Below are positions 3,175 to 55,615 of a stretch of 64,000 bases of DNA, in pieces. The number at the start of each line of letters is the position of its first letter. Position 1 is the stretch's first letter. Source of the DNA: Anaerolineae bacterium (GTDB taxonomy: Bacteria > Chloroflexota > Anaerolineae > Anaerolineales > Villigracilaceae); contig JAFLCE010000001.1 of assembly GCA_017303655.1 (NCBI GenBank), forward strand, positions 62,001 to 126,000, read 5' to 3'. A program made the position numbers and the translations under genes. The notes beneath the pieces are model-generated. The model did no database searches and had not been told where the DNA came from. It saw only the letters and a list, made by a program, of their open reading frames with translations.

Positions 3175-3204
3175 CAAGCCCTGAGAAATCGGGGCTTGTT
3201 TTTT
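3175..3204 (+). terminator. Rho-independent terminator of the liv operon
   Basis: Stem CAAGCCCTGA / TCGGGGCTTG (one G-U pair) with a GAAA loop, followed by six T residues, 12 bases after the livM stop codon. It ends exactly where the comM remnant begins on the other strand. Confidence 0.85.
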
Positions 3205-3535
3205 AGATTAGCATCTTTGGGTGGTACTGCAGCGCCTCCGCCAAATGCGGGGATTGGATATCTTCACCCTCCGTCAAATCTGCGATGGTGCGCGATAATT
3301 TCAAAATGGGGTGATAGGCTCTTGCTGAAAGTTGTAACTGGCTCATTGTCGACCGCATCAAACTCTGATGCTTCGACAAGCTCAGCACACCGCCTTCGGG
3401 CTGGAGTTAGCAAAATTGCCTGACCTCGCCGATGCGCGTGTCTGCGTTGCAAACGATGTCGGTGGAATTGGCGAAGCGTTGATTTTATATGTCTCTGGTG
3501 GTTTGCACACGTTTGCGGATGGTTTTGTCAACCTT
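3203..3535 (-). pseudogene. comM (Mg-chelatase-like ATPase) 3'-end remnant, copy 1
   Basis: Read on the minus strand this encodes the C-terminal end of ComM/YifB: LSARAYHPILKLSRTIADL, then IQSPHLAEALQYHPKM and a stop. Upstream of that TRIGEVRQFC and NQRFANSTDIVCNAD are recognisable, but two CAA codons have become TAA (in DI-Q-NQRF and QFC-Q-LQP), so it cannot be expressed as one protein. Homology with copy 4 (46145-46595) fades near 3535, so about two thirds of the gene is missing. A 24-base in-frame insert lies at 3369-3392. A dead gene fragment with no matching partner nearby. Confidence 0.85.
3369..3392. repeat. 24-base insert in comM copy 1, resembling a dispersed GCTTCGACAAGCTCAGC element
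   Basis: Compared with copies 4 and 5, the remnant carries an extra 24 bases between the codons for QPEG and SLMR. The insert contains GCTTCGACAAGCTCAGCA, which I recall as a dispersed intergenic palindrome half-site in several bacterial genomes, and it adds the residues GVLSLSKH without breaking the frame. Presence of the insert is seen directly; its identity as a mobile REP-like element is inference. Confidence 0.6.
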
Positions 3536-3655
3536 TCATGAAAAAACATTGCCAAAATGGAAGCACTATTTGTTGTATTCTCAATGCTACCTTTTATGCT
3601 AAACTGGAGTAGAATCAAAGTAAGTACCTTCTTATGCTTTCAGGTGGATGCGAAC

Positions 3656-5002
3656 ATGAAGGATAGGCAAAAAACATTGTTATTTTTCTTGTTGATGGGG
3701 ATGTCCAACCTTTTCTGTGCAGCGCCAATCCCGCCAACCATTACTCCATTTCCTTACACGGTTACACCTTCGCAAACCCCTCCAACAATTACGATCACTT
3801 CCACTCCAGTCACACCAACCCAAGCACCCAAACATGAATATTTCGTAAGCCCATCCGGGAATGATTCGAACCCGGGGACCTTCGCTGATCCCTGGAAGAC
3901 CATCCAAAAGGCGGTCGAGAACCTAGAAGCAGGAGACTGGGTGTACATCCGCGAAGGGACGTATGAAGGCATTCAGGGCGGATGGGTATTTCAAAATTCA
4001 GGCACAGCATCCCAACCTATCGTATTGAAGAATTACCCTGGTGAGCAGGTTATTTTCAGAATCACTTCCGCCACTGCGATTGACCATTACATCTTCAGGT
4101 GCGCCATCAATCCGCATAACCCTGTCAGTTGGCAGACGCCCAAGGCAGACCACATTCAGATCAGCGGGTCAGATGTAATACCGCGTATCCTATCGAATGG
4201 AGTGGAGAGCAAAATGGGGATCGTGTTTCAGGGATCGGAAGGCGAACAGTCTTCGGCGATTCATGTTTCGGACTGTGATAATTGGGAAGTATCAGGGGTG
4301 GACTTCATTGAAACCGCGTATGGGATCTTTACCGAAAAGAACAACTGGCATCTACTGGAGGAGCATAGCACCGATCATTGGTATGTGCATGATAACCGTG
4401 TATATAACTATTACCGCGAGTCGGGGATGCAATTCAATGGCAATTTCAACTTGATCGAAAATAATGAAATTTACAAAGTCAGCGACCGTTTAGATACTCC
4501 ACACGGTTGTCAACTAATCAACCTGCTGGGAAATAATAATATTGTTCGTGGGAATACCTTGAGCCGTTTGGGCAGTACGGCGGAGTGTCTTGGTATCTTG
4601 TTCGAATGGGACTTGTCGGATGCGAACCTGGTGGAGCAGAACATCATCAATGATGTCCCTGTGGGCATTGTCTTTCAGGGCGGGGATGGCAATATCATTC
4701 GTGGGAATACCATAACGGCTTCTCTCAACCCGACAGGTCCGGGCGTGAAGGTGGCATCTTATGACAATATCAACAGCTGGCCTTGTAATGACTACCCCGG
4801 CTCAGGCTCTTCTGCGGAAGCGCTTCTGCCGCCGAACGACCCATCCCACCCGGATTATAGGTACTACTATGAACCACGCAATTGTCATTCAATGAATAAT
4901 TTAATCACCGGTAACACTATCATTGGCTTTGACAACCCATGGGTCATGACCCCGGTGGTGGAGAATAGTAATATCTTTTCAGACAACATATTAATGCCTT
5001 GA
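3656..5002 (+). CDS. Secreted right-handed beta-helix (pectate-lyase-like) protein
   Basis: 448 residues. A basic start and hydrophobic stretch (KTLLFFLLMGMSNLFCA) form a signal peptide; the Cys is not in a canonical lipobox, so secretion or lipid anchoring are both possible. A Pro/Thr-rich linker follows (about residues 25-55), then YFVSPSGNDSNPGTFADPW, the usual entry to DUF1565/parallel beta-helix domains. After it come repeated strands of the type NLIENNEI, NNIVRGNTL, NIIRGNTI and NLITGNTI, which mark helical rungs. Such folds bind or cleave polysaccharide; no catalytic residues could be assigned. ATG 3656 has an AGGTGG site and makes a proper signal peptide; the frame is open from ATG 3557 but that adds a non-signal leader. 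It lies beside the polysaccharide locus, so a role in glycan processing is plausible. Confidence 0.75.
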   Translation: MKDRQKTLLFFLLMGMSNLFCAAPIPPTITPFPYTVTPSQTPPTITITSTPVTPTQAPKHEYFVSPSGNDSNPGTFADPWKTIQKAVENLEAGDWVYIREGTYEGIQGGWVFQNSGTASQPIVLKNYPGEQVIFRITSATAIDHYIFRCAINPHNPVSWQTPKADHIQISGSDVIPRILSNGVESKMGIVFQGSEGEQSSAIHVSDCDNWEVSGVDFIETAYGIFTEKNNWHLLEEHSTDHWYVHDNRVYNYYRESGMQFNGNFNLIENNEIYKVSDRLDTPHGCQLINLLGNNNIVRGNTLSRLGSTAECLGILFEWDLSDANLVEQNIINDVPVGIVFQGGDGNIIRGNTITASLNPTGPGVKVASYDNINSWPCNDYPGSGSSAEALLPPNDPSHPDYRYYYEPRNCHSMNNLITGNTIIGFDNPWVMTPVVENSNIFSDNILMP

Positions 5003-5019
5003 ACTGGCGGAGGGAATCT

Positions 5020-41170: not shown

Positions 41171-41183
41171 GATACTTTGCCTA

Positions 41184-41972: not shown

Positions 41973-43657
41973 TTGATCGGAATCTCGATGAAGGAAGCTT
42001 GGTCTCCGCCAATCATAATCTCCACGTTCGGACTACCCGTGATCGGGATTCTGGCAAAGGTGTCTTTGTCTGTGCCTGAAATGGATACTCGTACCTTCCA
42101 CCCGCGGCGAATCAGCGCCGAGATGGGATTCAACCCGAAGGTGATTTCTGCTACTTCGCCAGGGATGAGCGGCATGGCATCGGCACGTTTGAAGGAATGA
42201 TAGGGAGCGAATTGTTTATACGGCGGCGTGTCCGTTGAAACTTTGCGATGGATGGCGCGCAGCATTCCTTCGGTGAGATAGTGCACGTTGTCTTGCTCGT
42301 CAATCGCTTCGAGATAGACGAAGAAGTTGCCATCATCGTGCGTGGATTTGACGAACAACGTCACGATGGGATAGCCTGTGATTTCGGTATCCTGTTCAAG
42401 CGGCGCGGATGTGTACGAGAGTTGTCCTTTGATGGGCGCATACTTTACAGGTCGCTGGTCGAGTTCAGTTTGCCAGCGGTTGTTGAGTCCTGTTGAGGCG
42501 TTGAAATCTGTCTGGTAGTGGTCAACAGGCTGGGGCGGGGGAAGAAGCGAGGAGAGTCCGCTTTGGGGTTGGAAAAAGAATCGGGTGTTGGAAAAATCCG
42601 CAGGTGGAAACTCAAGCGTCGATTTCCATTCATTTTCAAAGATGGTGAAGTAATGCAACTCGCGGGTCGTGGGTGGATTATCGAAGAAGCGTAAAGATTC
42701 TTTCATCTGCGCGAGCAATGGAAATGGATTTTCCTTCGCGCCGATGTGTTGGGTTGCGCCGTGATTCCACGCGCCGATGACGGCTCGCTGCGGGCGCGGA
42801 TTGTTTGTGAAGCGATGGATGACCGCGTTCGCGGTGGCGGCGTCGAACCAACTGCCCCAATGGTCGAGCGCGTGCGTGGTGGGGCGGGTGAACATGCTGA
42901 TGTCATCCATGCGGATGTTGAGTTCAGGGTCGAGGTCATCGCGGAAGGTGATGTGACGCAGCGCGGAATCAACTTGCTGGTTGGTGTGTTTGGGAATTGG
43001 ATTGTTCCCGACAGGCTTGACACCTTTGACAAGAATCTTTTCAAGCACGCTCATGTTTTTTGGAAGTTGATTGGCGTCGAGTGCGCGGTTGTAATCTGCC
43101 CATTGCGTGAGCATGAACTCGTTGGGCACGCCGCCAGGGAAAGCGATGTCGGTATAAACATCGTACTCGTTGAAGCGCACGAGCGCGGAAGTGACGGCGG
43201 AATGTCCGCACGCGCCGAGCATTTCGGCGGTGGTGGCTTGGTACGAATTGCCGAAGCCGCCGACTTGCCCATTGCTCCACGGTTGCTGTGTGACCCATTC
43301 GGTTAAGTCGTACAGGTCGGTTAGGTCTGCGGCTGACCACGGGTGCGGATGATTGCCTTCCGACGCGCCTGTGCCGCGCATGTCAATGCGGAGGACGGCG
43401 TAACCAAAGGCGGTGAAAAAATTGCGAGCGGAATCGGGGAGCGAGAGAAACCACGAGAAGGGAGCTTTGAGTTGTTGCGCGCGCCAATAGCGCGTGGCGG
43501 CGAAGAGTGCAGGGATTTTGGTTTCGGGGTTTAGTCCACGCGGGAGGTAAAGGTCAACGGCGAGACGAGTCCCATCGCGCATGGGGATGTACAAAGTCTG
43601 CTCGGTGGAGCCTTTGTATGAAGGAGGGCGGAGGGGATTGGAGGAAGGGAAGGTCAT
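41969..43657 (-). CDS. CocE/NonD family hydrolase (X-Pro dipeptidyl-peptidase S15-like)
   Basis: 562 residues. N-terminal alpha/beta-hydrolase: MRDGTRLAVDLYLPRG, VLRIDMRGTGASEG, WSNGQVGGFGNSYQATTAEML with nucleophile Ser in GNSYQ. C-terminal jelly-roll domain of the PepX type from about residue 360 (QLSYTSAPLEQDTEITGYPIVTLFV). Family members cleave acyl esters or X-Pro peptides. No signal peptide, so it works in the cytoplasm. Its start overlaps the stop of the upstream alpha/beta hydrolase. Confidence 0.88.
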   Translation of the reverse strand: MTFPSSNPLRPPSYKGSTEQTLYIPMRDGTRLAVDLYLPRGLNPETKIPALFAATRYWRAQQLKAPFSWFLSLPDSARNFFTAFGYAVLRIDMRGTGASEGNHPHPWSAADLTDLYDLTEWVTQQPWSNGQVGGFGNSYQATTAEMLGACGHSAVTSALVRFNEYDVYTDIAFPGGVPNEFMLTQWADYNRALDANQLPKNMSVLEKILVKGVKPVGNNPIPKHTNQQVDSALRHITFRDDLDPELNIRMDDISMFTRPTTHALDHWGSWFDAATANAVIHRFTNNPRPQRAVIGAWNHGATQHIGAKENPFPLLAQMKESLRFFDNPPTTRELHYFTIFENEWKSTLEFPPADFSNTRFFFQPQSGLSSLLPPPQPVDHYQTDFNASTGLNNRWQTELDQRPVKYAPIKGQLSYTSAPLEQDTEITGYPIVTLFVKSTHDDGNFFVYLEAIDEQDNVHYLTEGMLRAIHRKVSTDTPPYKQFAPYHSFKRADAMPLIPGEVAEITFGLNPISALIRRGWKVRVSISGTDKDTFARIPITGSPNVEIMIGGDQASFIEIPIK

Positions 43658-44625
43658 TTTGGAATGATGAATGCGGAATTAGGGATTAGGAAATTGGTTA
43701 ACACTTGTTGAAACTTTTCTGGTTCTTCGAGGAATGCCCAATGTCCGCTTTGGGTGAATTCAACGGATTGGCAATTGGGGAGGGTGGCGCAGAGTTCATC
43801 CGCGACGGGTTTGCCTGTGTATGGCGAATCCGCTGTGCCATAGATGAAGAGGGTTGGGACTTGTAATTGACTGAGTTCTTTTTTGTAATCAGAGCCAACG
43901 AGGGAAAAAGAAATTTCGCGCCATGGGGCAAAGGAAACCATGCCTGTGTTTTCGAGAATAGCAGTGTTCGTTTTATCGAACAGGCGGTTGGGATTGTCTT
44001 TTTCGGATGACTTCGTGAACCATTCATCTGCGAATTTGGAGTCCGCGGGTGGGAAGCCGAGGGCAGTGGTGTAGAGCAACCCGCCAAACCATTTCCACAC
44101 GAAGCGGTTACTCATACCATTATTGATTCGTATCCCGCCGACAATGACCATTTTCTCAACGTGTTGCGGATATTTGATTGCATATCGCTGCACCAATGCG
44201 CTGCCGAAGGAATGACCGACGAGGATGACCTTGTCCGCTTTGACCACGTCATGGCGCAGGGTTTCGAGTTCTTCCACCAAATGCTCGATAGTGTAATTTT
44301 CTGGATTCGGTTTGATTTGCGAATTGCCCGAACCGCGCTGGTCGTAATAGATGACGCGAGTCTGCTCGGCGAGGAAGTCGAATCCGTTCTTGAAACTCAG
44401 GCTGGAGTGACCTGGCCCGCCGTGGACGAGGATCACAGGTGGCAGGTTTTTGTCTTTGCCAAGTTCGCGGTAATACAAGTCATAGCTTTTGACGTGGGCG
44501 GGAGTCGCACAGTCTACACAGGGGCGGGGTTGGGGCAGGACGCGGTTGTAGGCATGGTTAGCGTACGCGGCGTAGAGCGCGAGGACGACGAGAACGGCGA
44601 GGAGGACTTGCAATACGATAGTCAT
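43654..44625 (-). CDS. Proline iminopeptidase-like alpha/beta hydrolase, membrane-anchored
   Basis: 323 residues. N-terminal hydrophobic anchor (VLQVLLAVLVVLALYAAYA). Then VILVHGGPGHSS (oxyanion region typical of S33 peptidases), VIYYDQRGSGNS, nucleophile in LVGHSFGSALV, acid in YGTADSPY and His in TQSGHWAFLEEP. Removes N-terminal Pro or cleaves related amides and esters, probably on the outer face. The last residues (FLIPNSAFIIPK) are encoded by a CCTAATCCCTAATTCC repeat like that in the hairpin upstream, so the C-terminus may have been replaced by repeat sequence. Confidence 0.85.
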   Translation of the reverse strand: MTIVLQVLLAVLVVLALYAAYANHAYNRVLPQPRPCVDCATPAHVKSYDLYYRELGKDKNLPPVILVHGGPGHSSLSFKNGFDFLAEQTRVIYYDQRGSGNSQIKPNPENYTIEHLVEELETLRHDVVKADKVILVGHSFGSALVQRYAIKYPQHVEKMVIVGGIRINNGMSNRFVWKWFGGLLYTTALGFPPADSKFADEWFTKSSEKDNPNRLFDKTNTAILENTGMVSFAPWREISFSLVGSDYKKELSQLQVPTLFIYGTADSPYTGKPVADELCATLPNCQSVEFTQSGHWAFLEEPEKFQQVLTNFLIPNSAFIIPK

Positions 44626-44638
44626 AAAGGGATTACAA

Positions 44639-44676
44639 ATTAGGGATTAGGAATTACACAATTCCTAATCCCTAAT
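44639..44676. repeat. 17-bp perfect hairpin ATTAGGGATTAGGAATT, loop ACAC
   Basis: Arms 44639-44655 and 44660-44676, exact. Further CCTAATTCCTAA follows to 44691. Lies between the MFS stop and the hydrolase start on the minus strand, a position where it could stabilise or partly terminate the transcript. Confidence 0.75.
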
Positions 44677-44687
44677 ATACCTAATTC

Positions 44688-46010
44688 CTAAATTTCTTTC
44701 TTCGCTTCACCCTTCGTCACAGGCAGAATGGCAACGGTGGCGAGGACTAGGAAGACGAACATGATGAGCCAGACCCAGCGGTAGTCGTTGCCCATCGCTT
44801 CGACGAGAGTCCCGCCAAGGATGGGTCCAATGATGAAGCCGAGGGTCACGGCGATTTGACGCAAGCCTGTGTAGGTTCCCATCAGTGTTTCGACGGGGGC
44901 ACTGTCCACGATCATAGCGACTTGGACTACGTTGGCGAGGGGCCAGGTCAAACCGCAGATAAGAAGTCCCACATTGAGCATGGTCGCGTCGGGGAAGAGG
45001 TAGATGACCAGCGCACCGATGGCATATCCAACCAAGCCGACGATCTGGGTATTCTTGCGTCCGATCTTGTTCGATATTAAACCAGAAGGTACAGCCATCA
45101 CCATGAACGCCAAGGCAGGGATGGCGACCAACATGGCGGCAGAGGATTCTTCCATGCCGAGGGAGAAGACACCATAGGAGCTTAAGAAGGCTTGCATTTG
45201 AGCAAGAGCCACGTATGCAAGCAGGTTGCTGAGAAGTAAATATTTCAAACTGCTGGCATGCTCTTTGGGAAGTCCGCGCAGGAAGGAAATAATGCCTTTC
45301 AAGTTGAACGGCTCACCTGCGAGTTCGCTGGCACTGGCAAGTTCTTCAGGTTCTTTGACAAATGCCCAGGTGAGGAGAAAAATCAGAAACGCCAGACCAG
45401 CTGCGATCCAGAAAGGAAGCGGTCCGTATACATCATAAAGTGCAGCACCAGCCAGGGCAGTGATCACCACGAGCAGTCCCGCAATCGCGCCAGCAATTCC
45501 ATTGGCGGTGGCGCGTTGGGGCGAGGGAGTCACATCAAAGAGCAGAACATCCGCAACGGGGCGCACAACTGCGAAGGCGAATAGAACAATGAAGAGTGAG
45601 ATGATGAAGGGGACAAGCAAGCCCGTGAGTTGCCCCGTCTGCCCGTTGAGTTCGGGGGAAATTCCCATCGGTATAAGCGGGACGAAAATGAAGGCAGCGA
45701 TGGCAACAGGTACGCCAAAGAGGATGAACGGCATACGGCGCCCCCATTTTGAGCGCAGACTGTCGCTCCACGCGCCGACGATGGGGCTGATGAACAAGCC
45801 CGCGATATTGTCGAAGACGAGGATGAAGCCCGTCAGCGCAGGTCCGAGACCGAAGCCGACGGTGGTGGCTCCCGCTTCGGTAAAGGCGGGGTTGCCTGCC
45901 TGCAAATAGACAGGGACGTAGGTGTTATACAACTGCCAGATAACTTCCATCACGGCGGGCAGGGTCGCTGCGATGATGATGTTGCGCCAACTCAACTTGA
46001 TATGGGACAT
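44688..46010 (-). CDS. MFS transporter (GPH/SLC45-like)
   Basis: 440 residues with about 12 membrane segments. The loop GAWSDSLRSKWGRRMPFILFG is the signature between helices 2 and 3 in glycoside-pentoside-hexuronide and sucrose-type carriers; IGRKNTQIVGLVGYAIGALVI is the repeat counterpart. The central loop (about 215-245) joins two halves. AGGAGAAG precedes the ATG. It is the first gene of the operon and probably imports its substrate; family alone does not tell whether a sugar, peptide or other compound. Confidence 0.88.
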   Translation of the reverse strand: MSHIKLSWRNIIIAATLPAVMEVIWQLYNTYVPVYLQAGNPAFTEAGATTVGFGLGPALTGFILVFDNIAGLFISPIVGAWSDSLRSKWGRRMPFILFGVPVAIAAFIFVPLIPMGISPELNGQTGQLTGLLVPFIISLFIVLFAFAVVRPVADVLLFDVTPSPQRATANGIAGAIAGLLVVITALAGAALYDVYGPLPFWIAAGLAFLIFLLTWAFVKEPEELASASELAGEPFNLKGIISFLRGLPKEHASSLKYLLLSNLLAYVALAQMQAFLSSYGVFSLGMEESSAAMLVAIPALAFMVMAVPSGLISNKIGRKNTQIVGLVGYAIGALVIYLFPDATMLNVGLLICGLTWPLANVVQVAMIVDSAPVETLMGTYTGLRQIAVTLGFIIGPILGGTLVEAMGNDYRWVWLIMFVFLVLATVAILPVTKGEAKKEI

Positions 46011-46031
46011 TTTCTCTTCTCCTGTGAGTTC

Positions 46032-46047
46032 TTGAACAATCGTTCAA
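46032..46047. promoter_or_regulatory. TetR-type operator TTGAAC-AATC-GTTCAA
   Basis: Perfect 6-bp arms, 16 bases in all, placed about 15-30 bases downstream of the predicted transcription start and before the MFS ribosome site. GAAC-N4-GTTC palindromes are typical of TetR-family operators; the operon encodes one such regulator. Assignment is inference. Confidence 0.55.
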
Positions 46048-46069
46048 TAAATTATTCTAACGTTAAAAC

Positions 46070-46098
46070 AGAATACAGGAAAAAAAGTTACGAGTCAA
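46070..46098 (-). promoter_or_regulatory. Putative promoter of the MFS-to-ligase operon
   Basis: On the minus strand TTGACT (46093-46098) and TATTCT (46070-46075) with a 17-base spacer. Transcription would start near 46063, giving a leader of about 50 bases that includes the palindrome. Confidence 0.55.
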
Positions 46099-46116
46099 GA
46101 GGGAGTTTTTGGAATC

Positions 46117-46143
46117 AAAAAGACGCCGTGTATGGCGTCTTTT
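46117..46143 (-). terminator. Rho-independent terminator after comM copy 4
   Basis: Stem AAAAGACGCC / GGCGTCTTTT with loop GTGTAT and a T run on each strand, one base after the comM remnant stop on the minus strand. It separates the 46.7-55 kb transcript from the MFS operon promoter. Confidence 0.8.
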
Positions 46144-46144
46144 A

Positions 46145-46595
46145 CTACCCCATCATAATCTTTGGTCTATATTGCAGCGCCTCCGCCAGATGTGGGGACT
46201 GGATCTCTTCACTCCCTGCCAAATCCGCGATGGTGCGGGATAGTTTGAGGATGCGGTGATAGGCTCTTGCTGACAAATTAAGTTGACTCATCGCCGCCCG
46301 CATCAGGCTCTGACCTTCGGGTTGGAGTTGGCAAAATTGCCTGACCTCGCCGATGCGCATGTCTGCGTTGCAGACGATGTCTGTGGAATTGGCGAAGCGT
46401 TGATTTTGAATGTCTCTTGCGGTTTGCACGCGCGTGCGGATTGCCTCGCTGGTTTCGCCGAGTTTATTGCCGCTCAGTTTTTCGTAATCGACTCTGGGGA
46501 CTTCGATGTGAATATCAATACGGTCGAGCAATGGACCGGAGATGCGTTTTTGGTATTTGGTGACGACAGCAGGGGCGCATGTGCAGGGCTTTTGA
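46145..46595 (-). pseudogene. comM 3'-end remnant, copy 4 (longest, frame open)
   Basis: About 150 codons in one open frame encode the C-terminal third of ComM: from CTCAPAVVTKYQKRISG through LLDRIDIHIEVPRV, NQRFANSTDIVCNAD and IQSPHLAEALQYRPKIMMG to TAG. The AAA+ Walker motifs and N-terminal Lon-like domain are absent; similarity ends just upstream of the CTCAP motif near 46595. No ribosome site or ATG serves the frame, so it is taken as a fragment that has escaped nonsense mutations. In the 46011-46655 gap the remaining features are the promoter, operator and terminator. Confidence 0.85.
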
Positions 46596-46655
46596 GAATC
46601 TCCATGATAGCCACATGGTCAGGGTTGTACACAATTGGACAAAATTCTATAATAA

Positions 46656-47147
46656 TCAGCAATTAGCCAAAAAACCGAAAATGTAAAGACCTATTCCGAA
46701 CGCAATATGATTCGCTAAACTGCGAATCCTCACCTGTTTCGGATTGGGTGTTTTTGATGCGGCAAATCCAAGCCCAAATGAGGGTTGCATAATTAAGAAA
46801 GGTATCGAAACTGTACCTATTCCGAAGACTATTGCGGGTAACAGTGTTGGGTGTTGAAGCCAACCATTGCCAACCAATGCAACAAAAGCGATTGAGAAGC
46901 CAATACCAATTATGTAATGTGCAATCCATCCAATCGCACATTCTGAGCGTTTCTGTGGGGTAGAGCCCATGTTGAAATGTCTAAAAACTCCTTCTGGCAT
47001 ATATAGAATCCAACGCCCGACAAGACAAAAGTTCGATAGGGGGATTTTGAACGTATACTTTAGAAATAGTCCCCAAAGGTCAAAAATTAAAGTTGCGCCA
47101 ATCCCAATAAAGATAGGATTGAGGAAGTAGAGAATTGAGTTATTCAT
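46656..47147 (-). CDS. DUF2938-like membrane protein
   Basis: 163 residues with four hydrophobic segments. The start GIGATLIFDLWGLFLKYTFKIP and the segment LVGRWILYMPEGVFRH, then GWIAHYIIGIGFSIAFV and LIMQPSFGLGFAASKTPNP match what I recall of DUF2938. Role unknown. Its ATG follows the CPBP stop directly, so the two are coupled. Confidence 0.72.
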   Translation of the reverse strand: MNNSILYFLNPIFIGIGATLIFDLWGLFLKYTFKIPLSNFCLVGRWILYMPEGVFRHFNMGSTPQKRSECAIGWIAHYIIGIGFSIAFVALVGNGWLQHPTLLPAIVFGIGTVSIPFLIMQPSFGLGFAASKTPNPKQVRIRSLANHIAFGIGLYIFGFLANC

Positions 47148-47972
47148 TTAGTTTTTTTGCTTTCTCGTATAAAGCACAAGTAAAGTGAACACAACACAAA
47201 TCAACCCGAACAGACTGGCTTCGAGCCCAAATTGACCACCCGTCAGCCATATTTGAGTTTCTCCAAAGACAGGTATTAATAAACCCGATTGTTCTGTGCC
47301 GCTTACACCAAAGCCAAGGACGCCGCCTTGGACAAAGTTCGCCATGAAATGCAGCCCAAGAGGCATCGCCAGGCTTTTGGTTTGGATAAATGCCAGTCCG
47401 AATAGGATTGACGCGAGAAAAATGTTAATGCTCGCCATCACCTTGATATTGCCGGTCATGCCCGGATTATTCAAGTGCGTAAGAAGAAAATAGGCGGCTA
47501 TGATCAATTGGGCTGGCCATTGACCTAGCCCAGCGATGAGGCGTTGAAAGACAAACCCTCGGAACAGAAGTTCCTCTGCGAACGCGACTCCGGCAAAGAG
47601 CAATAAGCTTGGTAAGACGGTTGGAATACCTTCAGGATTCCATTGCCAGCGGACCCAGCCAAAGATTCCCAGAATCAGCGAAGGAATCAGCATGAGTGTC
47701 GAACCGATCAAGCCGCCTACGCACAGTTCTTTGAGCCAACGCCAATTAAACGCGCCATACATCTCAGCCAGTGGTCTTCGTCGCAGCAATTGACCGGTTA
47801 ATGAGGCGATCATTACGATCATGGCTTGCACGCCAATGGAGACTTCCATATTGTTTTGCTGCGCTACGATCATCGTCGGTACAAGCAAGGTAGCAAGCAC
47901 CAGAAAGAATATCAGAATCCACCAGCCGTTGCGAAGTTGCCGGTCAGAATTTAGAAACGGATTGAAGGTCAT
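47148..47972 (-). CDS. CPBP family intramembrane metalloprotease
   Basis: 274 residues, about eight membrane segments. Conserved motifs: FAEELLFRGFVFQRL (E-E-x-x-x-R), LTHLNNP and AMPLGLHFMANFVQG (metal-binding His). These CAAX-protease/bacteriocin-processing relatives cleave within the membrane. ATG 47972 has AGGATA upstream; a longer frame to 48047 lacks a site. The WWILIFFLVLATLL helix is TM1. Confidence 0.88.
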   Translation of the reverse strand: MTFNPFLNSDRQLRNGWWILIFFLVLATLLVPTMIVAQQNNMEVSIGVQAMIVMIASLTGQLLRRRPLAEMYGAFNWRWLKELCVGGLIGSTLMLIPSLILGIFGWVRWQWNPEGIPTVLPSLLLFAGVAFAEELLFRGFVFQRLIAGLGQWPAQLIIAAYFLLTHLNNPGMTGNIKVMASINIFLASILFGLAFIQTKSLAMPLGLHFMANFVQGGVLGFGVSGTEQSGLLIPVFGETQIWLTGGQFGLEASLFGLICVVFTLLVLYTRKQKN

Positions 47973-48058
47973 AGAATATCCTATCTGTTTGTGCATTGAT
48001 TTATAAAAAATATAAACTGTTTTTGAAGTCAAATATCGAATGTGCATTGTATTTATGG

Positions 48059-49075
48059 TTATTTCATTTCTTCTTCAAAGAACATTATTATGCTGTTGTT
48101 CATTTTTGTATGAAAAACCTTTCTGTCGAATTGGCCCTTATCAGAGCAAATTGCAGGAGGCGCAAGAAAACTACAGGGTGTGAGGAACGAAAGATGACTT
48201 GCGCCAGTGATCGAGTGAAACTCAACCCAGGAACCTAATGCTTCGCGAACCAACTTTGTGTTTGTGGCATACGGAACGTCGATATCGTCCTCGGCACTCC
48301 AAAGCTGAATTGGCACATGTACATTATCAAGTCCATTTGGAACAAATGTGAATCCCAGTCCCGGCGCCGCCACGACCGCTGCCTTAATTCTCAAATCAGG
48401 CAGAAAATCTTTTTCCACTGTCGCCGAATCGGCACTTAGCAGTGGGGAATTGACGGACTGTAGCAGATCGCAAACAATTTCAGGTGACTCGGCACAATGT
48501 TTCGCTATGATGCGAAGGTCGGGCTGACCACCAACAGCGGTCAATACTGTAAATCCCCCCGCCGAGAGCCCGTAAGCGCCGATACGTTCTGGGCCAATAT
48601 GATTATGATATTCCCAATTGTCGAGCATGTAATCAATAGCAGTATGGATTTCTTCGTTGCGTTGTGTTAACCAGGAGACTGATCCAACGGCACTTTGGTC
48701 AGCATAGTTATCGCCTCTATGCATGGGTGCTACGACTACATAACCAGCGTTCGCAAGTGCAAGTGCCAGGTCGGCGTGACTTGCAGGTCCACCGCCATTT
48801 CCATGTGAAATGATTATTAATGGCAAATCATTTCCTGAAATTGGAGCATTGCGTGCCACGTCCATCAACACGATGCTCAACATTGTCGTTGGTTTAGGTT
48901 GTACTTGAGTTGGGTACCACACGCCTGCGGGAAGGGAGTGTCCGTCAGCGCCAGGTATTTGAACGATTTCGAATCCCACAGGGTTCTCGGTTCTTAACGC
49001 TGTTGACATGGCATAGCGTACGATTCCATAAACCAATATTAAGATAACAATGATTATCCAGATAAACCATTTCAT
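48059..49075 (-). CDS. Dienelactone-hydrolase-like alpha/beta hydrolase, membrane-anchored
   Basis: 338 residues. N-terminal anchor (WFIWIIIVILILVYGIVRYA). PLIIISHGNGGGPASHADLALALANAGYVV is the oxyanion strand region, GAYGLSAGGFTVLTAVGG holds the nucleophile Ser, and WSAEDDIDVPYATN and ITGASHLSFL supply acid and His. Resembles the predicted dienelactone hydrolases (COG4188-like) of unknown substrate. It overlaps the upstream 103-residue gene by four bases. Confidence 0.82.
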   Translation of the reverse strand: MKWFIWIIIVILILVYGIVRYAMSTALRTENPVGFEIVQIPGADGHSLPAGVWYPTQVQPKPTTMLSIVLMDVARNAPISGNDLPLIIISHGNGGGPASHADLALALANAGYVVVAPMHRGDNYADQSAVGSVSWLTQRNEEIHTAIDYMLDNWEYHNHIGPERIGAYGLSAGGFTVLTAVGGQPDLRIIAKHCAESPEIVCDLLQSVNSPLLSADSATVEKDFLPDLRIKAAVVAAPGLGFTFVPNGLDNVHVPIQLWSAEDDIDVPYATNTKLVREALGSWVEFHSITGASHLSFLTPCSFLAPPAICSDKGQFDRKVFHTKMNNSIIMFFEEEMK

Positions 49076-49383
49076 GATTTTTTTCTCCTTTTTGAACGGC
49101 TCTGCTTAACTGACTTGGTTGATATTTTCATCTCTACGTCTTTGGGTTCAACTTGGCTTAATGTAAGCAATGGCATTCCCAAGTCACGTATCTTCTTCAA
49201 TATTCCATGCAAAGCAGACTGATCAACCACGATACCACTTAAGAGGGTGTTGCCATCTTCTTCCAAAGTGACGGTCAATCCTTCAAACCAGTTCATCCAC
49301 TGCTGACCCAAATGCCCTTTGAGTTTGAATTGATAGATCGTCTGTTGATTTGCATCGGGATTTGAGCTTTGTTCATCTGTCAT
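49072..49383 (-). CDS. Conserved small protein of unknown function
   Basis: 103 residues. The central part ([20 protein letters not shown], then [22 protein letters not shown]) looks like a small alpha/beta protein that I recall as common next to oxidoreductases and regulators in Chloroflexi and Actinobacteria, with no assigned role. The C-terminus is lysine-rich ([11 protein letters not shown]). It overlaps the genes on both sides by ATGA junctions, so all three are translationally coupled. Confidence 0.75.
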
Positions 49384-50300
49384 TTTTTGTTCCCAACAGA
49401 GATGACGACATTCCCTTTTTTACGACCAGTATCGACATAGCGGTGCGCCTCGGCCATATCTTCCATTGGATAGCATCGGTCAATGACCGCTTTGATCTCA
49501 CCTTTCTCGATCAAGTCCTTGATGAAGATCAGGTTGTCCATGCTTTCTTTCGTGTCTAGTTTTGCCATCGACACAAATGTCCCGTTTGATGCGAGAACCT
49601 TCGTGTATTGCGTTTTTGGGAATTTTGCGAGGGTATCAAAGATGATGTCGTAACGTTCGTCTCTGGATGAAAAATCTTCTTTTGTGTAATCGATGACGTG
49701 GTCGGCACCCAGAGATTTCACCAACTCCAGATTGGATGTGCTGCAAATGCCGGTCACTTCCGTGCCGAAATGCTTTGCCAACTGGACGGCATATGTGCCG
49801 ACACTTCCGGAAGCGCCATAAATCAGGACTTTTTGTCCACGTTGGATGTTTCCTTTGCGGAGCATGCGCAATGCTGTGGTTGCACCGATCGGAAGGGCTG
49901 CCGCTTCCTTATAAGTTACATTGGACGGTTTGATCGCCATCATCGCTTTTTCGGGTAGACATTTATATTCGGCATAGCCGCCAAAATTTTCCGTGAGGGT
50001 GGAGGCGAATACCTGGTCACCGACCTTGAAGCGTGTTACGTTTTTGCCAACGGCTTCCACTACGCCTGCAAGTTCAGAGCCGAAGATCGGTTGTCTGGGT
50101 TTTGTAATGCCCAGCGCAAGGCGTGCGGGAATCCATACTGCGGCAGGGACGGTAAAACTTCGCATTCGAAAATCGGCGGCGGTGACGGTGGTCGCGTGGA
50201 CTTTGATCAAGATTTCATTATCTTTGGGTGTCGGCTTTTCGATTTCTTTGAGTTGAAGAACTTCCGGTCCGCCGTATTGGGTTGCTACAATTGCTTTCAT
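49380..50300 (-). CDS. NAD(P)-dependent alcohol dehydrogenase, quinone-oxidoreductase-like (MDR)
   Basis: 306 residues. GroES-like part: [27 protein letters not shown] and [28 protein letters not shown]. Rossmann part: [30 protein letters not shown]. Structural-zinc cysteines are absent, as in zeta-crystallin/QOR types. It reduces or oxidises a small carbonyl compound with NAD(P)H. Confidence 0.9.
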
Positions 50301-50355
50301 TTTAAGACTCCTTATTTTTGAAATTATTAAGTGAACTTGATGTCAATATTCAAAT

Positions 50356-51039
50356 CTATGCTGTGCGGGTTTGTCTGGTTGTACCCTTGCGGATACTCCA
50401 TTCAGCCACAGCAAGGTTGATCACCCAGGCTGCGCCATTCAACAACGCGTTTTGAAATTCATTGGGGGTACCGAGGATCAGTGCACCGACCATACCCGTG
50501 AATACCTGCGTACCTGCACCAAGACCGATTGCGTAAGCGCGTGTCATCCAAGCTAGGTGCTGATCAACATCCTTCCGCAGGATGGCGAGGTATCCCAAGA
50601 TGATCGAGAGAACCATGCCAGTTCCGAACAGGAGCCGAAAGGCATACAACAGATTGCTTGCGCCTTCCGGGCGGGGATAGAACACGGTCATCCATACCCC
50701 TGAAAGCCCAACGAGAAGTCCAACTGGAACCAGAAACCTGCCAACCCAACGATGCCATTTACTTCCGCGCTGCCAAAGGCGACCCACGAACTGGAGTGCG
50801 CCAAGCAGGGCATAGACCGCAGATGCAATAATGTGAATAACCACAGGCGAGGGAGAGGCAAAGTAGCGCGCGTTGTCTGGTGTGACCTCAGCGCCGCTTG
50901 CCAATTCGTTCAAGCGTAAGGCACCAAAGATCAGGGGAATGATGCTGAGGAGGATCAGCCCGACGGGCACCCACCATGATATTTGAGTTTTTCTTGCAGG
51001 TGTTTTGATTTGACTTTTATTTTGAATGATCGCTTTCAT
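50356..51039 (-). CDS. DUF2306-like multi-pass membrane protein
   Basis: 227 residues, six to seven hydrophobic segments. The pattern VIHIIASAVYALLGALQF, KWHRWVGRFLVPVGLLVGLSG and HLAWMTRAYAIGLGAGTQVFT with conserved His residues resembles DUF2306, a possible heme- or electron-transfer membrane family. Function unassigned. Lies between the oxidoreductase and a membrane protein gene in the same direction. Confidence 0.72.
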   Translation of the reverse strand: MKAIIQNKSQIKTPARKTQISWWVPVGLILLSIIPLIFGALRLNELASGAEVTPDNARYFASPSPVVIHIIASAVYALLGALQFVGRLWQRGSKWHRWVGRFLVPVGLLVGLSGVWMTVFYPRPEGASNLLYAFRLLFGTGMVLSIILGYLAILRKDVDQHLAWMTRAYAIGLGAGTQVFTGMVGALILGTPNEFQNALLNGAAWVINLAVAEWSIRKGTTRQTRTA

Positions 51040-51069
51040 CTTAAACTCCTTGGAAAGATTTGTTGGTAC

Positions 51070-51747
51070 TCAGGCGACACTGCCTGGTTCCTGTGAAACG
51101 ACTCCCTGATTAAGCAGGGATTCAGACGGTTTCTCCCGTCGTTCGGAAAAGAGGGCGTATCCCAGCCAGATCATCGCGCCCCCAATCGGTATCGATGTCA
51201 ACTGGACGAGCTGATAAGGAAGCAGCGTAAACATGGTGCCCGCCAAAGGACCTGATATGGCAAACAGGGCAGCTGCCCAGCGCGGCAGGATACGAGCGCG
51301 GAACATCGCAATGCCAAAGAACAGGGAGCCAAGTACAAAAAGTATCGATACGAGCGAATACATTGTTGCGAGTCCGCCAAGGTTCGTTGGTTCTCCAACC
51401 CCATTTGCCAACTGCAATACGCTTTCAACAAAAGTTGGCGCTACGGTCGTCAACAGCGGCAGGATTGTGGGTTCGATGAATGTAATGCACATCTGAACTG
51501 CGTAATAGATGGTTAGCAGAAGATAGCCAACCAAACCCTGCCAACCGGTTTCTTCCACTTGTCTGGCGTAGAGCCCTGTAATACCGAGCAGACCAAAGAT
51601 CGAGATGGAGGTCTTGAAGGAAGTGATGATGACGAATGTACTGGTATTGATAGATGGATGGGTCGGCTCAATAGCCGTGAAAATAATCCCTGCCACCACG
51701 GCAGATAAACCTGCCCAACGGATGAGTTTCGGGGTTGTCACTTTCAT
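51070..51747 (-). CDS. Membrane protein of unknown function
   Basis: 225 residues with about six hydrophobic segments (for example LIRWAGLSAVVAGIIFTAI, GLVGYLLLTIYYAVQMCITFI, YSLVSILFVLGSLFFGIAMFRA). I do not recognise a named family. ATG 51747 follows AAAGGAGAAAAA; a frame open to 51864 would read through the regulatory region. Its upstream region is a near copy of that before the 138-residue gene at 51917-52333. Confidence 0.7.
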   Translation of the reverse strand: MKVTTPKLIRWAGLSAVVAGIIFTAIEPTHPSINTSTFVIITSFKTSISIFGLLGITGLYARQVEETGWQGLVGYLLLTIYYAVQMCITFIEPTILPLLTTVAPTFVESVLQLANGVGEPTNLGGLATMYSLVSILFVLGSLFFGIAMFRARILPRWAAALFAISGPLAGTMFTLLPYQLVQLTSIPIGGAMIWLGYALFSERREKPSESLLNQGVVSQEPGSVA

Positions 51748-51750
51748 TTT

Positions 51751-51889
51751 TTCTCCTTTTGAACCAGTAAGATAAGTGTCAGTGGTGACACCCGGCATCG
51801 CTGCCTGTTTGGATTTGATTGATGACAATATACAAATCAATGTGGGGAGCTGTCTTCCCCACATGTGGGTATTTCGTGTGGGGATTTAT
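51751..51889 (-). promoter_or_regulatory. Duplicated regulatory region, copy A
   Basis: About 85% identical by eye to copy B (52340-52474). On the + strand it contains ATGTGGGGA-GCTGTCT-TCCCCACAT (9-bp arms, 7-base spacer, 51840-51864), a possible -10 TATATT on the minus strand near 51829-51834, and a conserved segment TTGACACCCGGCAT/GTGACACCCGGCAT before the AAAGGAG ribosome site. The GGGGA words recall MalT boxes (GGGGAKGAGG), and a MalT-type regulator gene lies next door. Confidence 0.65.
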
Positions 51890-51916
51890 GGAGGAGGGGA
51901 ACGAGCGATTAGGTAT

Positions 51917-52333
51917 CTACTTCCTCCACGGATCGCCGGGCGCCTTCAAGTAATGATTGAAGACATAGCCCCAGGGCATCACAAGTGGAACCAACACAAT
52001 ACCTACGAGGTTGTTGATCAGTACCTCTTGAACGTCCGGAGCCAACTGCCCGGCAGACCATTGGGGGAGCGCGAACGTCAGAACCCAGACTGCCTTCCAC
52101 AGAAACTCGAAGAACAGCAGTGGCAGCATCTTGAGTGGGCGATGAATTCCTACCCCTGCCAGGAGCCCTAGCCCAGCGAGCACACTGAGCACAACGCTAC
52201 CCATGGTCGACAAGTTTGCAGGAGGATTGAAAATCGCGGGCAATTTATAGATTGCCAACCCAATAGCCATGAACGCATACATGGCTCTCAGTAAATAAAG
52301 CCTGAAAATCGAAACCTCGGACTTGGTATTCAT
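51917..52333 (-). CDS. Small membrane protein of unknown function
   Basis: 138 residues with four hydrophobic segments (LYLLRAMYAFMAIGLAIYKL, SVVLSVLAGLGLLAGVGI, MLPLLFFEFLWKAVWVLTFAL, LVGIVLVPLVMPWGYVFNHYL). Family not recognised. ATG 52333 is preceded by AAAGGAG. Has the duplicated regulatory region upstream and is the first gene after the LuxR gene. Confidence 0.7.
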   Translation of the reverse strand: MNTKSEVSIFRLYLLRAMYAFMAIGLAIYKLPAIFNPPANLSTMGSVVLSVLAGLGLLAGVGIHRPLKMLPLLFFEFLWKAVWVLTFALPQWSAGQLAPDVQEVLINNLVGIVLVPLVMPWGYVFNHYLKAPGDPWRK

Positions 52334-52339
52334 ATATTT

Positions 52340-52474
52340 TTCTCCTTTTTGAACCGATAAGATGTGTGTCAGAATTGACACCCGGCATAGCTGCCTGTTT
52401 GGGTTCGGTTGAAGACAATATACAAATGAATGTGGGGAGATGTCTTCCCCACATTTGGGGATTTAGATGGGGAG
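52340..52474 (-). promoter_or_regulatory. Duplicated regulatory region, copy B
   Basis: Contains AATGTGGGGA-GATGTCT-TCCCCACATT (10-bp arms, 7-base spacer, 52429-52455), the same TATATT-like box and the same TTGACACCCGGCAT segment as copy A. A further CCCCACATTTGGGG palindrome overlaps the right arm. Confidence 0.65.
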
Positions 52475-52479
52475 AATCG

Positions 52480-52513
52480 AAAGACCTCACCAGATAAATT
52501 TGGCGAGGTCTTT
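52480..52513 (-). terminator. Terminator of the LuxR gene
   Basis: AAAGACCTCACC / GGCGAGGTCTTT with one mismatch and a 10-base loop, 25 bases past the LuxR stop on the minus strand. Only three T residues follow. Confidence 0.6.
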
Positions 52514-52538
52514 GGGTATCCTGTTTAGTCGTGCTAGT

Positions 52539-55265
52539 TTAGATCAAGCCAAGCTCGATTGCCCGATTGACAGCCCCCCGGCGGCTATTGACGTTAAGTT
52601 TGTTGTAAATGCTCTTAGTATGCGTCCGCACCGTACTTAAAGCGATGACAAGCTCCTGAGCGATTTCGGGACCCGACAACTCAGTTTTGAACAGGCGGAG
52701 GATATCCAATTCACGCTGACTAAGCGGCTCGATCAGGGACGATGAAGCTGGTGCGGCGAAAAGAGCCGTTTCTACATCCAAGCCTTGATCTTCCACTTCA
52801 AATGCAGATAACAGTTTGCGTGTATAGCTCGGCAGGATTCCTTGTGCATCAATTTCGCGAATTAATTCTGCCATGCTTGAACCTTCGGCGAGGAAGATGC
52901 GCATATAGCCTTCGGGTTCAGCCAACTTCAAGGCACGTTCCAACGCGGATAGCGCAGCAGGAATGTTCTCTTGCATTTGATGAACAAGCGCCTGCAAGAT
53001 CAGAATTTCGATCACACTACCAATTCTTCCGCCATCTTCTGCCGCCTTCAAAAGACGTTCCAGCAAACCAATTGCATCTTGCAGTGAACTGTTTGACTGG
53101 TCGGTTTGATATTGAGACAGAAGCACTCTGACAAACGTGATTAGCTCAAACTCCCGCAAGTAACTGGGGCTTTCATCAATGGACAATTTCCGTTCACGTG
53201 TCCAAGCCAGAGCCTTCTCCAACTCACCTTGCTTGACCCAGACCCGCGCCTTCAATGCAGAGATTGGATGGACGTTAGGGGAAAAATCACCCACATATAA
53301 AGGCTCTGCCTCGTCGAGCAGGTCGAGCGCCTCGTCCAGTTCTCCTTGAGCCTCTTGTATTTGAGCCATGGCAACACGCCAGCGATATGGGTTTTTCGGT
53401 AACCCGTTGAGTTCACCGATCTCCTTGCTTTTCAAAAGGTGTTGCTCGGCAGTATTCAGCTCATTACGCTCGAAGTAGAGCCCGCTCATTCCGACATGCA
53501 TGTCTGCCGCGCCGCGCAAAACTGGCGCACCCTGCTTTGTCGCAAGCTGCAATCCGCGCTCGTAGATGCTCATTGCCTCATACAGGCGACCCTGCGTAAT
53601 CCTTATATCCGCCAGCGTGACAGAGCCGCCGATCACATCCGAGATGAAACCAACTTTCTGCAAATGAGCCATCCCTTTAGCAAACATCTCGTATGCTGCC
53701 TCGAGATCACCGCTCGCCCAGGATGCAAGCCCTACCAGCGACGATGCAGCTCCGCGGGGGAAATCGTCATCTTCACGGGCAAGTTCCAATACTTTGCGTG
53801 CATGCTTCATGGCGTTTACCGCATCGCCTTGAGCCAGGGCAATTGCAGCACGGTACATGGCGACCACACTAGGCAAACGCTGAAACTCCTCTTCACTCAC
53901 ATAAACAGGGCGTTCCCGAATATCTTCAGGAGCAGCCAGCCACAGTTCGATATCCCGCAGACGAGACACAACACCATCAAATTGACCATTCTGCATCAGC
54001 GTGCCGACATAGTTAACGTTGAGTACAGGACGGTGCTGAAACAATTCATCGGGAAGCGCCTTGAGCCAGCCCAGCAATGTGGACTCCTGCCTGCTTTGGC
54101 GCATAATCGGCAAGGTTTGTTCGATCAGATCCGCCGCTCGTTCAAAATCGCCGCCAGTCAACGCATGGTGGATCGCATCAGCCGTTAGACCGTTTTGTTC
54201 ATACCACTCGCTTGCACGTTTATGCAAGGCAGGGACCAGATCAGGCTGCTCGGTCATCAAGTGAATACGAAGTACATCTGCAAAGAGATGATGATAGCGG
54301 TACCAATCCCGCTTGTCGTCCAATGGAATGAGGAATAGATTACCCCTCTGCAATTGCTCCAATTTCAATTTACTTTCCGATTGAGCGGTAACTGTGTCAC
54401 AGAGTGAACTATTCAAACGGTCAAAGATGGAAGTTTGCAGCAGAAAGTTTCGAATAGGCTCAGGTTGACGCCGCAATACCTCTTCAACCAGATAATCCAC
54501 AATATAGCGATGATCTCCGGCAAAAGCCTGGATGAATCCGTGTACATCTTCTTGTCCCTTCATCGAAAGCGCCGCTAGTTGTAGACCAGCAATCCATCCT
54601 TCGGTGCGGGTTTCCAACGCAGCGACCGCTTCTACTGAGAGATCAAGGTTCATCACTTGGTTTAGGAATTCTCTGGCTTCGGATGGAGTAAAGCGCAAGT
54701 CTGCTGCGCGGATTTCGGTCAATTGATTTCGCGCACGTAACCGAGGGATAGGCAGAGACGGATCTTCACGAGTGGTGATGATCAGGTGCATTCGAGGTGG
54801 TAGATGTTCGATCAAAAAAGTGAGTGCATCATCGACCGATTTAGCATCCGTGAGATGGTAGTCATCAAGGACAAGAATTAAATCGTCAGGGATAACGGAG
54901 ATTTCATTGAGTAAGGCTGTGAGAATTGAATCGATAGGTGGTATTTGAGGGGATTGAAGAGTATCGAGTATGCTTGCCCCCAGATTTGGCGAAACAGTCT
55001 GCAATGTGCTGATAACATAGATTAAAAACCGCGCGGCGTCATTATCATTTTCATCTAGTGATAACCAAGCAGCCGGTCTCCCGCAATTCACGATCCATTC
55101 ACTGACCAATGTGCTTTTCCCGAAACCAGCCGGGGCTGAAATGAGGGTCAATTTGCAGCCTGTAGAGATGCCATCATTTAGTTGATTGATCAGACGCGAA
55201 CGAGTGATGAGCTTAGGAGAGGGTGGAGGTATAAAAAGTTTCGTGGCTAAAACTGGTGTCACCAT
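52539..55265 (-). CDS. MalT-type LuxR family ATP-dependent transcriptional activator
   Basis: 908 residues. N-terminal STAND ATPase: start VLATKLFIPPPSPKLITRSRL, Walker A in SAPAGFGKSTLVSEWI, Walker B LILVLDDYHL. Middle: winged helix and TPR-like helical repeats (about 350-820). C-terminal GerE helix-turn-helix: LSQRELDILRLFKTELSGPEIAQELVIALSTVRTHTKSIYNKLNVNSRRGA. It activates genes on binding ATP and an inducer. The start is taken as ATG 55265, the usual start for the family; there is no Shine-Dalgarno site and a TATAAT box sits six bases upstream, so the mRNA may be leaderless. The duplicated inverted repeats at 51840 and 52429 are candidate targets. Confidence 0.92.
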   Translation of the reverse strand: MVTPVLATKLFIPPPSPKLITRSRLINQLNDGISTGCKLTLISAPAGFGKSTLVSEWIVNCGRPAAWLSLDENDNDAARFLIYVISTLQTVSPNLGASILDTLQSPQIPPIDSILTALLNEISVIPDDLILVLDDYHLTDAKSVDDALTFLIEHLPPRMHLIITTREDPSLPIPRLRARNQLTEIRAADLRFTPSEAREFLNQVMNLDLSVEAVAALETRTEGWIAGLQLAALSMKGQEDVHGFIQAFAGDHRYIVDYLVEEVLRRQPEPIRNFLLQTSIFDRLNSSLCDTVTAQSESKLKLEQLQRGNLFLIPLDDKRDWYRYHHLFADVLRIHLMTEQPDLVPALHKRASEWYEQNGLTADAIHHALTGGDFERAADLIEQTLPIMRQSRQESTLLGWLKALPDELFQHRPVLNVNYVGTLMQNGQFDGVVSRLRDIELWLAAPEDIRERPVYVSEEEFQRLPSVVAMYRAAIALAQGDAVNAMKHARKVLELAREDDDFPRGAASSLVGLASWASGDLEAAYEMFAKGMAHLQKVGFISDVIGGSVTLADIRITQGRLYEAMSIYERGLQLATKQGAPVLRGAADMHVGMSGLYFERNELNTAEQHLLKSKEIGELNGLPKNPYRWRVAMAQIQEAQGELDEALDLLDEAEPLYVGDFSPNVHPISALKARVWVKQGELEKALAWTRERKLSIDESPSYLREFELITFVRVLLSQYQTDQSNSSLQDAIGLLERLLKAAEDGGRIGSVIEILILQALVHQMQENIPAALSALERALKLAEPEGYMRIFLAEGSSMAELIREIDAQGILPSYTRKLLSAFEVEDQGLDVETALFAAPASSSLIEPLSQRELDILRLFKTELSGPEIAQELVIALSTVRTHTKSIYNKLNVNSRRGAVNRAIELGLI

Positions 55266-55271
55266 ATATAA

Positions 55272-55277
55272 ATTATA
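55272..55277 (-). promoter_or_regulatory. -10 box of the LuxR gene, predicts a leaderless transcript
   Basis: TATAAT on the minus strand ends six bases before ATG 55265, so transcription should begin at or next to the start codon. No convincing -35 element at 17 bases. Confidence 0.4.
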
Positions 55278-55378
55278 TAACATCTGGAGACTTCAGCGTA
55301 CACACATCTATAGAAGCGTATTTTCTTATTTCGCCTACAATTACCAAAAAATACAGGCAGAGAGTATCCCACCCGTAT

Positions 55379-55401
55379 TTTGGGTGAAACTTACACCCAA
55401 A
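55379..55401. repeat. Inverted repeat TTTGGGTG-AAACTTA-CACCCAAA
   Basis: Perfect 8-bp arms with a 7-base spacer, five bases beyond the stop of comM copy 5 and 114 bases upstream of the LuxR start. The arm-spacer geometry equals that of the inverted repeats at 51840 and 52429, but the arm sequence differs; it could be a terminator or a regulator site. Confidence 0.5.
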
Positions 55402-55406
55402 GCTGA

Positions 55407-55615
55407 TCACCCCATCATAATCTTCGGATGGTATTGCAGCGCCTCCGCCAAATGCGCGGACTGGCTCTCGTCACTCCCTGCCAAATCCGCGATGGTGCGA
55501 GATAATTTCAAAATTCGATGATAAGCGCACGCTGACAAATTGAGTTGGCTCATCGCCGCCCGCATCAAACTCGGACCTTCAGGCTGGAGTTCGCAAAATT
55601 GCCTAACCTCGCCGA
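55407..55615 (-). pseudogene. comM 3'-end remnant, copy 5
   Basis: Minus strand reads GEVRQFCELQPEGPSLMRAAM, then SQLNLSACAYHRILKLSRTI and SAHLAEALQYHPKIMMG, TGA. The frame is open but starts abruptly at GEV near 55615; upstream sequence is unrelated to ComM. The rest of the 55266-55839 gap shows only the inverted repeat at 55379 and the lacI promoter region; I see no gene between 55616 and 55781. Confidence 0.85.

Follow-up and report, generated by a model that had tools for sequence, protein, structure and literature searches.

The comM 3' remnants scattered through the analysed window (the whole 64,000-nucleotide stretch, C1:62,001-126,000 of the 272-kb contig C1 of genome G000) are probably displaced attachment sites, left by DNA units that entered by site-specific recombination inside the comM codons NPCPCG. 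Our data show a one-strand array, a junction shared between copies, an arm with a sharp outer limit, coding constraint on the copies, unrelated cargo between them and a variable comM flank in relatives. The model accounts by one mechanism for the variability of the region behind comM in Anaerolineales, and it allows the borders of units to be predicted to the exact base.

A one-strand array of comM 3' ends

Sequence searches recovered all five minus-strand comM 3' remnants that a sequence-only reading of the window had reported, at their reported positions. The features of the window are as follows.

3203..3535 (C1:65206-65535), minus strand: comM 3' remnant 1, 5' truncated, with two in-frame TAA codons
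3536..28970: 25.4-kb cargo unit separating remnants 2 and 1, for the most part an exopolysaccharide cluster, with a response regulator
28971..29172 (C1:90978-91075 + 91067-91169), minus strand: comM 3' remnant 2, two pieces around a deletion
29957..30033 (C1:91974-92026), minus strand: comM remnant 3, an internal scrap of the 3' end, found by sequence match
30034..46144: cargo unit B (16.1 kb; Pfam scan of six proteins)
46145..46635, minus strand: comM 3' remnant 4, whose 5' end carries the att core (codons NPCPCG)
46636..46695, minus strand: arm position of the unit end in the window, decayed, its 23-nt inner part showing 7 mismatches
46696..55406: cargo unit A (8.8 kb including the arm; Pfam scan of three proteins)
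55407..55615, minus strand: comM 3' remnant 5, truncated at the 5' end and with an open frame
55616..64000: first part of the following unit, which extends to the remnant at C1:133794 outside the window

The reported end of remnant 4 at 46595 had to be moved, as the copy reaches 46635. The two nonsense changes reported for remnant 1 are the two TAA codons listed above, and the deletion described in remnant 2 is present, with the correction that this copy consists of two separate pieces flanking it. Remnants 4 and 5 had both been described as undecayed, which holds for the open frame of remnant 5 but not wholly for remnant 4, which carries one nonsense codon in the att core.

When the G000 assembly (172 contigs, 93.6% complete, 5.8% contaminated) was searched with the nucleotides of 46145-46595, 16 matches were obtained, 15 on C1 and one scrap on C100, and a protein search with the comM 3' piece gave 17, all on C1; every match was on the minus strand, and both counts take in the host copy and some matches that are pieces of one copy. 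The matches extend from C1:12,637 to 240,044. Merging the pieces left 13 remnant places between C1:12.6 kb and 198.8 kb, all on one strand and all downstream of the host comM 3' part at C1:211749-212636. The existence of these further copies goes against the first half of the refuting condition set by the sequence-only reading, a genome with no other copies. Neighbouring remnants lie 7.4 to 33 kb apart, and the longer distances may hold lost junctions. Decay is not strictly ordered by distance, the 108-kb copy being better kept than those at 117 and 134 kb. The C-terminal comM domain PF13335 matched 13 times in G000, while the N-terminal domain PF13541 gave one strong match (151 bits, on C89) and three more at 37 to 47 bits, which we take for other proteins; only the 3' part of comM has therefore been multiplied.

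A shared junction and a conserved arm

Six of the C1 copies (46, 108, 149, 171, 179 and 198 kb) start at one and the same junction, with up to 3 mismatches to the pattern allowed. There, ATTGTGTNNA, the end of a foreign arm, is joined to CCCTGCCC, the core encoding the comM codons N-P-C-P-C-G, while the host comM reads ATTGCTGCAATGAATCCCTGCCC at the same position. In the window, the junction of remnant 4 lies at 46635. The other seven of the 13 downstream places are truncated pieces without it. Since remnant 4 shares its 5' limit with five copies outside the window, the differing 5' limits noted earlier mostly reflect later truncation or decay. The suggestion of recombination at a comM terminus likewise stands in a modified form, as the crossover falls inside codons 348-353 (NPCPCG, numbered after the comM of G001) and not at the end of the gene.

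The junction pattern ATTGTGTNNANCCNTGYCCNTGYGG occurred in 17 of the 400 genomes of the order and in none of the 400 when reversed as a control. Among the genome_contigs, it was found in 23 stretches, 21 of them titled Chloroflexi or Anaerolineae; the remaining two were a Deltaproteobacteria stretch without the arm and an Omnitrophota stretch with it (L137), the latter perhaps mis-binned. Neither the junction pattern nor the arm pattern had a match in the viral_contigs, and a virus origin was rejected on that ground.

The arm is a conserved stretch of about 60 bp with a sharp outer limit, as judged from 36 sites in 21 genomes, most but not all of them joined to comM. Mean pairwise identity between genomes was 0.39 to 0.40 at positions -60 to -21, compared with 0.25 to 0.27 beyond -60 (605 pairs); the selection of sites itself favours positions -16 to about +24. 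Sites were kept when they had at most 8 mismatches to the 23-nt arm core, which retained 36 of 77 rows, a few of them not joined to comM. The 41 rows left out are mostly chance matches, with about 12 real or likely comM junctions among them, including the arms of family f14 (G037 and G257), which differ from the others, and the decayed C1 copies at 46, 171 and 198 kb. Searched without its comM part, the arm pattern was found at 23 sites in 15 of the 400 genomes; 17 of these continue into comM codons, some into only a few, and three (in G053, G188 and G238) look like chance. At three further places (G247:C21 152632, G247:C17 22172 and G304:C26 160744), the arm is followed by non-comM sequence, partly common to G304 and G247 C17. 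These may possibly represent a second target or an excised site.

Divergence among the copies

Repeated copying, which had been offered as an explanation, is not supported. In 15 pairwise comparisons of the five full-length G000 remnants and the host copy (156 to 161 codons), dS ranged from 0.43 to 1.25 and dN/dS from 0.026 to 0.105, so that comM copies within one genome differ at synonymous sites like those of different species but little in protein. High dS with low dN/dS indicates that the copies diverged under selection as parts of working comM genes; the remnants are therefore displaced ends of once-functional comM genes and not local copies. In a tree, the five full-length G000 remnants, the host copy and one G247 remnant form a single clade (support 100/96). 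Remnants and hosts are interleaved overall, with 12 changes compared with 16.3 in shuffles; there is some clustering too, as only 6 of 500 shuffles were as low as 12. Homologous exchange inside the segment also occurs, since the G188 copies at 217475 and 224288 are mosaic, with 61 to 66% identity in the first 120 nt, 85% in the following 60 and 96 to 100% thereafter.

Arrays behind comM in relatives

PF13335 was matched at least twice in 13 of 41 genomes, some of the matches being pieces of one copy. G188 consists of one 3.97-Mb contig, on which a full-length comM (180205-181731) is followed on the same strand by remnants at 196418, 217451 and 224258, at distances of 15, 36 and 43 kb. G218, G001, G009, G037 and G257 likewise have a full-length comM with remnants behind it on its strand, and G008 has the same order with a frameshifted comM. 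The pattern is therefore not an artefact of the fragmented assembly from which the window comes.

Behind comM, the first ORFs (up to six each) are unrelated between the nine relatives with a readable comM flank, of 12 fetched, except for one pair with 30% identity. The nine have a comM with different genes behind it, which also goes against the second half of that refuting condition, complete comM genes at the remnant sites in sister genomes. On the other side, a membrane-protein gene upstream of comM is common to G000, G001, G004, G008, G009 and G218; it was not found in the fetched DNA of G021, G188 and G037.

Cargo of the units

The sequence-only reading saw no island genes. This holds for integrases, as C1 has no PF00589 or PF00239 match, but not for the genes between the remnants, which on our model are island cargo. 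GC content there ranges from 46.9 to 52.7%. The exopolysaccharide cluster comprises Wzz/BcsQ-like, Wzy_C, Bac_transf, glycosyltransferase, Asn_synthase and Hepar_II_III genes (10 proteins of this unit scanned by Pfam, 9 with a match). Unit B encodes an M20 peptidase, a PF00144-family serine hydrolase, an AMP-binding enzyme, an MR_MLE protein, an S15 peptidase and an MFS protein, and it recurs with sharp ends and in different settings in several members of the genus; in G338 about 100 bp separate its end from a comM scrap, and no such scrap was found in the DNA fetched around it in G007, G019 and G347. Unit A carries DUF2938, a hydrolase and a MalT-like LuxR regulator, among others. Elsewhere, one three-gene cargo stands beside a comM junction both in G001, where the arm is decayed, and in G218. 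As read from translations, with no family search, the G001 unit resembles a V-type ATPase operon and the 1.05-kb G008 unit a toxin-antitoxin pair.

Recombinases inserted in comM

In G244, comM is broken at the junction codon. The joint reads AACCCCTGCCCTTAGGGGTATACACAATTGACC, its right half approximating the reverse complement of the arm, and is followed by two large serine recombinases in tandem (612 and 582 aa, with 58% identity between them) and then by ParA and DnaA_N-type genes; an arm with a comM 3' remnant lies 183 kb from the pair. With the first of these recombinases as the query, only G244, G258 and G270 of the 400 order genomes were recovered at E<=1e-40, at most three candidates being scored per genome. 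In all three, the comM alignment ends at codon 353-354, the recombinase pair is inserted there and the 3' end of the first recombinase overlaps comM. By eye, the flanks in G244 (TTAGGGGTATACACAATTGACC) and G258 are clear inverted repeats of the arm, and G270 has a weaker version. G258 and G270 had no match to the junction or arm pattern, leaving G244 as the one pair carrier with the junction. The G244-type recombinase has the Pfam domains PF00239, PF07508 and PF13408; a PDB search with it gave no match.

We consider this pair at the junction codon, or a close relative of it, most likely to have made the arrays. The weakest point of the model is that the pair is absent from the window's own genus: the search at E<=1e-40, with up to three candidates scored per genome, recovered it neither from G000 nor from any other member of the genus among the 400. 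In addition to C1 of G000, contigs C6 and C18 of G001 and C9 of G037 had no PF00589 or PF00239 match, and in 22 genomes no match to either domain lay near comM junctions except the comM-inserted recombinases of G244 and of C89 in G000. A tyrosine integrase was rejected as the array enzyme: in the 22 genomes, the one exception among the PF00589 matches, none of which otherwise adjoins a junction, is a divergent pair 1.5 kb from the non-comM arm in G304, and this pair has no relative in the array regions examined.

The C89 recombinase belongs to a different insertion. The genome's own comM is split at its Walker A codons, with the 5' part on C89, beside a 548-aa serine recombinase (C89:2835-4481), and the 3' part on C1 (C1:212560-212720 at the split); as assembled, comM is probably inactive in G000, to judge from this break. 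We rejected this recombinase as the array enzyme because it breaks comM at another codon (GGHN, Walker A). A recombinase 58% identical to it stands at about comM codon 33 in G301 (C185). Together with the junction codon and Walker A, this means that comM has been struck at three points by serine-recombinase elements. Across the host comM 3' part from the array, at C1:239883-240044, there is one more comM scrap, decayed and located either within the Walker A element or past it.

A model for the arrays and its alternatives

We propose that comM serves as a fixed entry point for successive DNA units, each made up, in this order, of about 480 nt of comM 3' sequence, the cargo and the arm of about 60 bp ending in ATTGTGTNNA. 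On entry, the unit's own 3' segment would complete comM, and the resident 3' end would be displaced to the far side, where it would decay. Repeated entry would line up units acquired on separate occasions, the most recent one adjoining comM. The enzyme was probably the tandem pair of G244, G258 and G270 or one closely related to it, which either worked in trans or has disappeared from this genome. The units would have gained their comM 3' segment when a wild-type comM end replaced the recombinase end through homologous exchange. Since a displaced gene end is present at every junction, it might be possible to read from the array in which order the units were acquired.

The same architecture would result from Campbell-type, RecA-dependent integration, in which circles or transforming DNA carrying an arm and a comM 3' end recombine by homology and the arm merely hitch-hikes. 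The mosaic G188 copies show that such exchange takes place inside the segment, and the 22 genomes lack PF00589 and PF00239 near their junctions, apart from G244, C89 of G000 and the non-comM arm of G304. This route nevertheless leaves it unexplained that the outer arm (-60 to -21) is conserved between genomes while linked synonymous sites are near saturation, and that a recombinase pair sitting at this very comM codon has a flank that matches the arm; we regard it as unlikely, though it deserves more weight than any other alternative. Decayed tandem paralogues left in place would account for the common orientation of the copies, but hardly for the multiplication of the 3' part only or for the 7 to 33 kb of unrelated genes between copies, and the foreign junction at which six copies begin contradicts them; we give this explanation very little credence.

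Site-specific entry also has to be set against transposition. AbaR elements are Tn7-like and interrupt comM with a short duplication, and displaced 3' ends are not expected from them. The arrays have displaced 3' ends of about 480 nt beside full-length comM in G188, G218 and G001, a Tn7-like insertion is not known to supply a replacement 3' end, and the junction coincides with a serine-recombinase insertion point. An AbaR-like Tn7 transposition into comM appears most improbable, even with the target in common, comM being the site of AbaR islands in Acinetobacter (PMC11472951).

Relation to known systems

The closest resemblance is to the ssrA islands of Dehalococcoides (DsiB/DsiA; PMC3146451), which stand in tandem behind one gene, marked by repeats of its 3' end and confined within 100 kb; 15 of 31 lack an integration module, and the 3' end of the CcrB-like serine recombinase DsiB overlaps attL. 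Like them, and in the same phylum, the comM units lie in tandem on one side of the target, bounded by repeats of its 3' end, and the first recombinase of G244, G258 and G270 overlaps comM as DsiB overlaps attL. The arrays differ from the ssrA islands in a protein-coding target, comM instead of tmRNA, in a displaced segment of about 480 nt instead of 20 bp, in a recombinase pair with both members long (612/582 aa in G244, compared with 540/200), and in an array contig, C1, on which neither PF00239 nor PF00589 had a match and whose units hold no recognised recombinase.

Staphylococcal cassette chromosomes (SCC, with CcrAB) have two large serine recombinases side by side, and their cassettes stand in tandem where a core gene has its 3' part. 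An adjacent pair is likewise seen in G244, G258 and G270, and tandem units at a gene's 3' part in the comM arrays, in another phylum and at another target. With the NCBIfam CcrB and CcrC models, whose cut-off is 900 bits, the recombinase scored 33 to 49 bits; XisF was the best model, at 64 to 70 bits and thus also below its cut-off of 375. On such scores, it is not placed in the Ccr family. Integrons hold foreign units in a row at one fixed end, each with its site and with the recombinase outside the units. The arrays are similar in their row of site-bearing foreign units at one end, one of which, the small G008 unit, looks toxin-antitoxin-like, but these units measure 1 to 33 kb and are mostly multi-gene, their site is a piece of a host gene, and an IntI-type tyrosine integrase was not found next to the array (no PF00589 on the array contig). 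Tycheposons target tRNA genes and use a tyrosine recombinase, whereas here the target is comM and C1 has no PF00589 match. In a literature search on comM islands in Chloroflexi, where 'comM' also matched 'community' and most subscription papers lay outside the scope, we recognised no description of such an array.

The gene comM, the AbaR target in Acinetobacter, is here an attachment site for serine-recombinase elements in another phylum. A more far-reaching and quite tentative reading, which we think doubtful, is that entire operons move as cassettes in several Anaerolineales genera and that comM is their 'attI'; autonomous serine-recombinase elements would break the gene at the att core, and cargo cassettes bringing a working comM 3' end would repair it as they enter. 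If so, the state of a DNA-recombination (transformation) helicase gene would be coupled to cassette traffic, and the remnants would be a record of successive acquisitions.

Additional observations

Close to unit ends, and behind the stop codon of comM in some cases, a motif, TGTATACGGGTATAAGTTTCG, is found repeatedly, with 16 matches compared with 4 in a reversed control; its sites include about 30712-30732 of the window, C1:171603, C1:198278 and places in G021, G022, G020 and G247. We could not fit it into the island model. A second serine-recombinase family (MSRRAAIYIRTSSETQGEK..., recognised by eye) begins just beyond the end of unit B in L244 (G020:C394). Pairs of this family stand in G009 C76 and G299 C59, and the flanks fetched for these two pairs contained no comM.

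Among the proteins encoded inside the arm (56 sites, chance sites included), no recombinase family recurs, but MalT-like regulators do. Judged by sequence, MalT-like LuxR regulators lie just inside the arm end in G188, G037, G247 and at C1:171562; the regulator in the window (52539-55283, Pfam-confirmed) lies at the opposite, non-arm end of unit A. Unit A also contains a direct repeat of 129 nt, 84% identical, at window positions 51746-51874 and 52336-52464.
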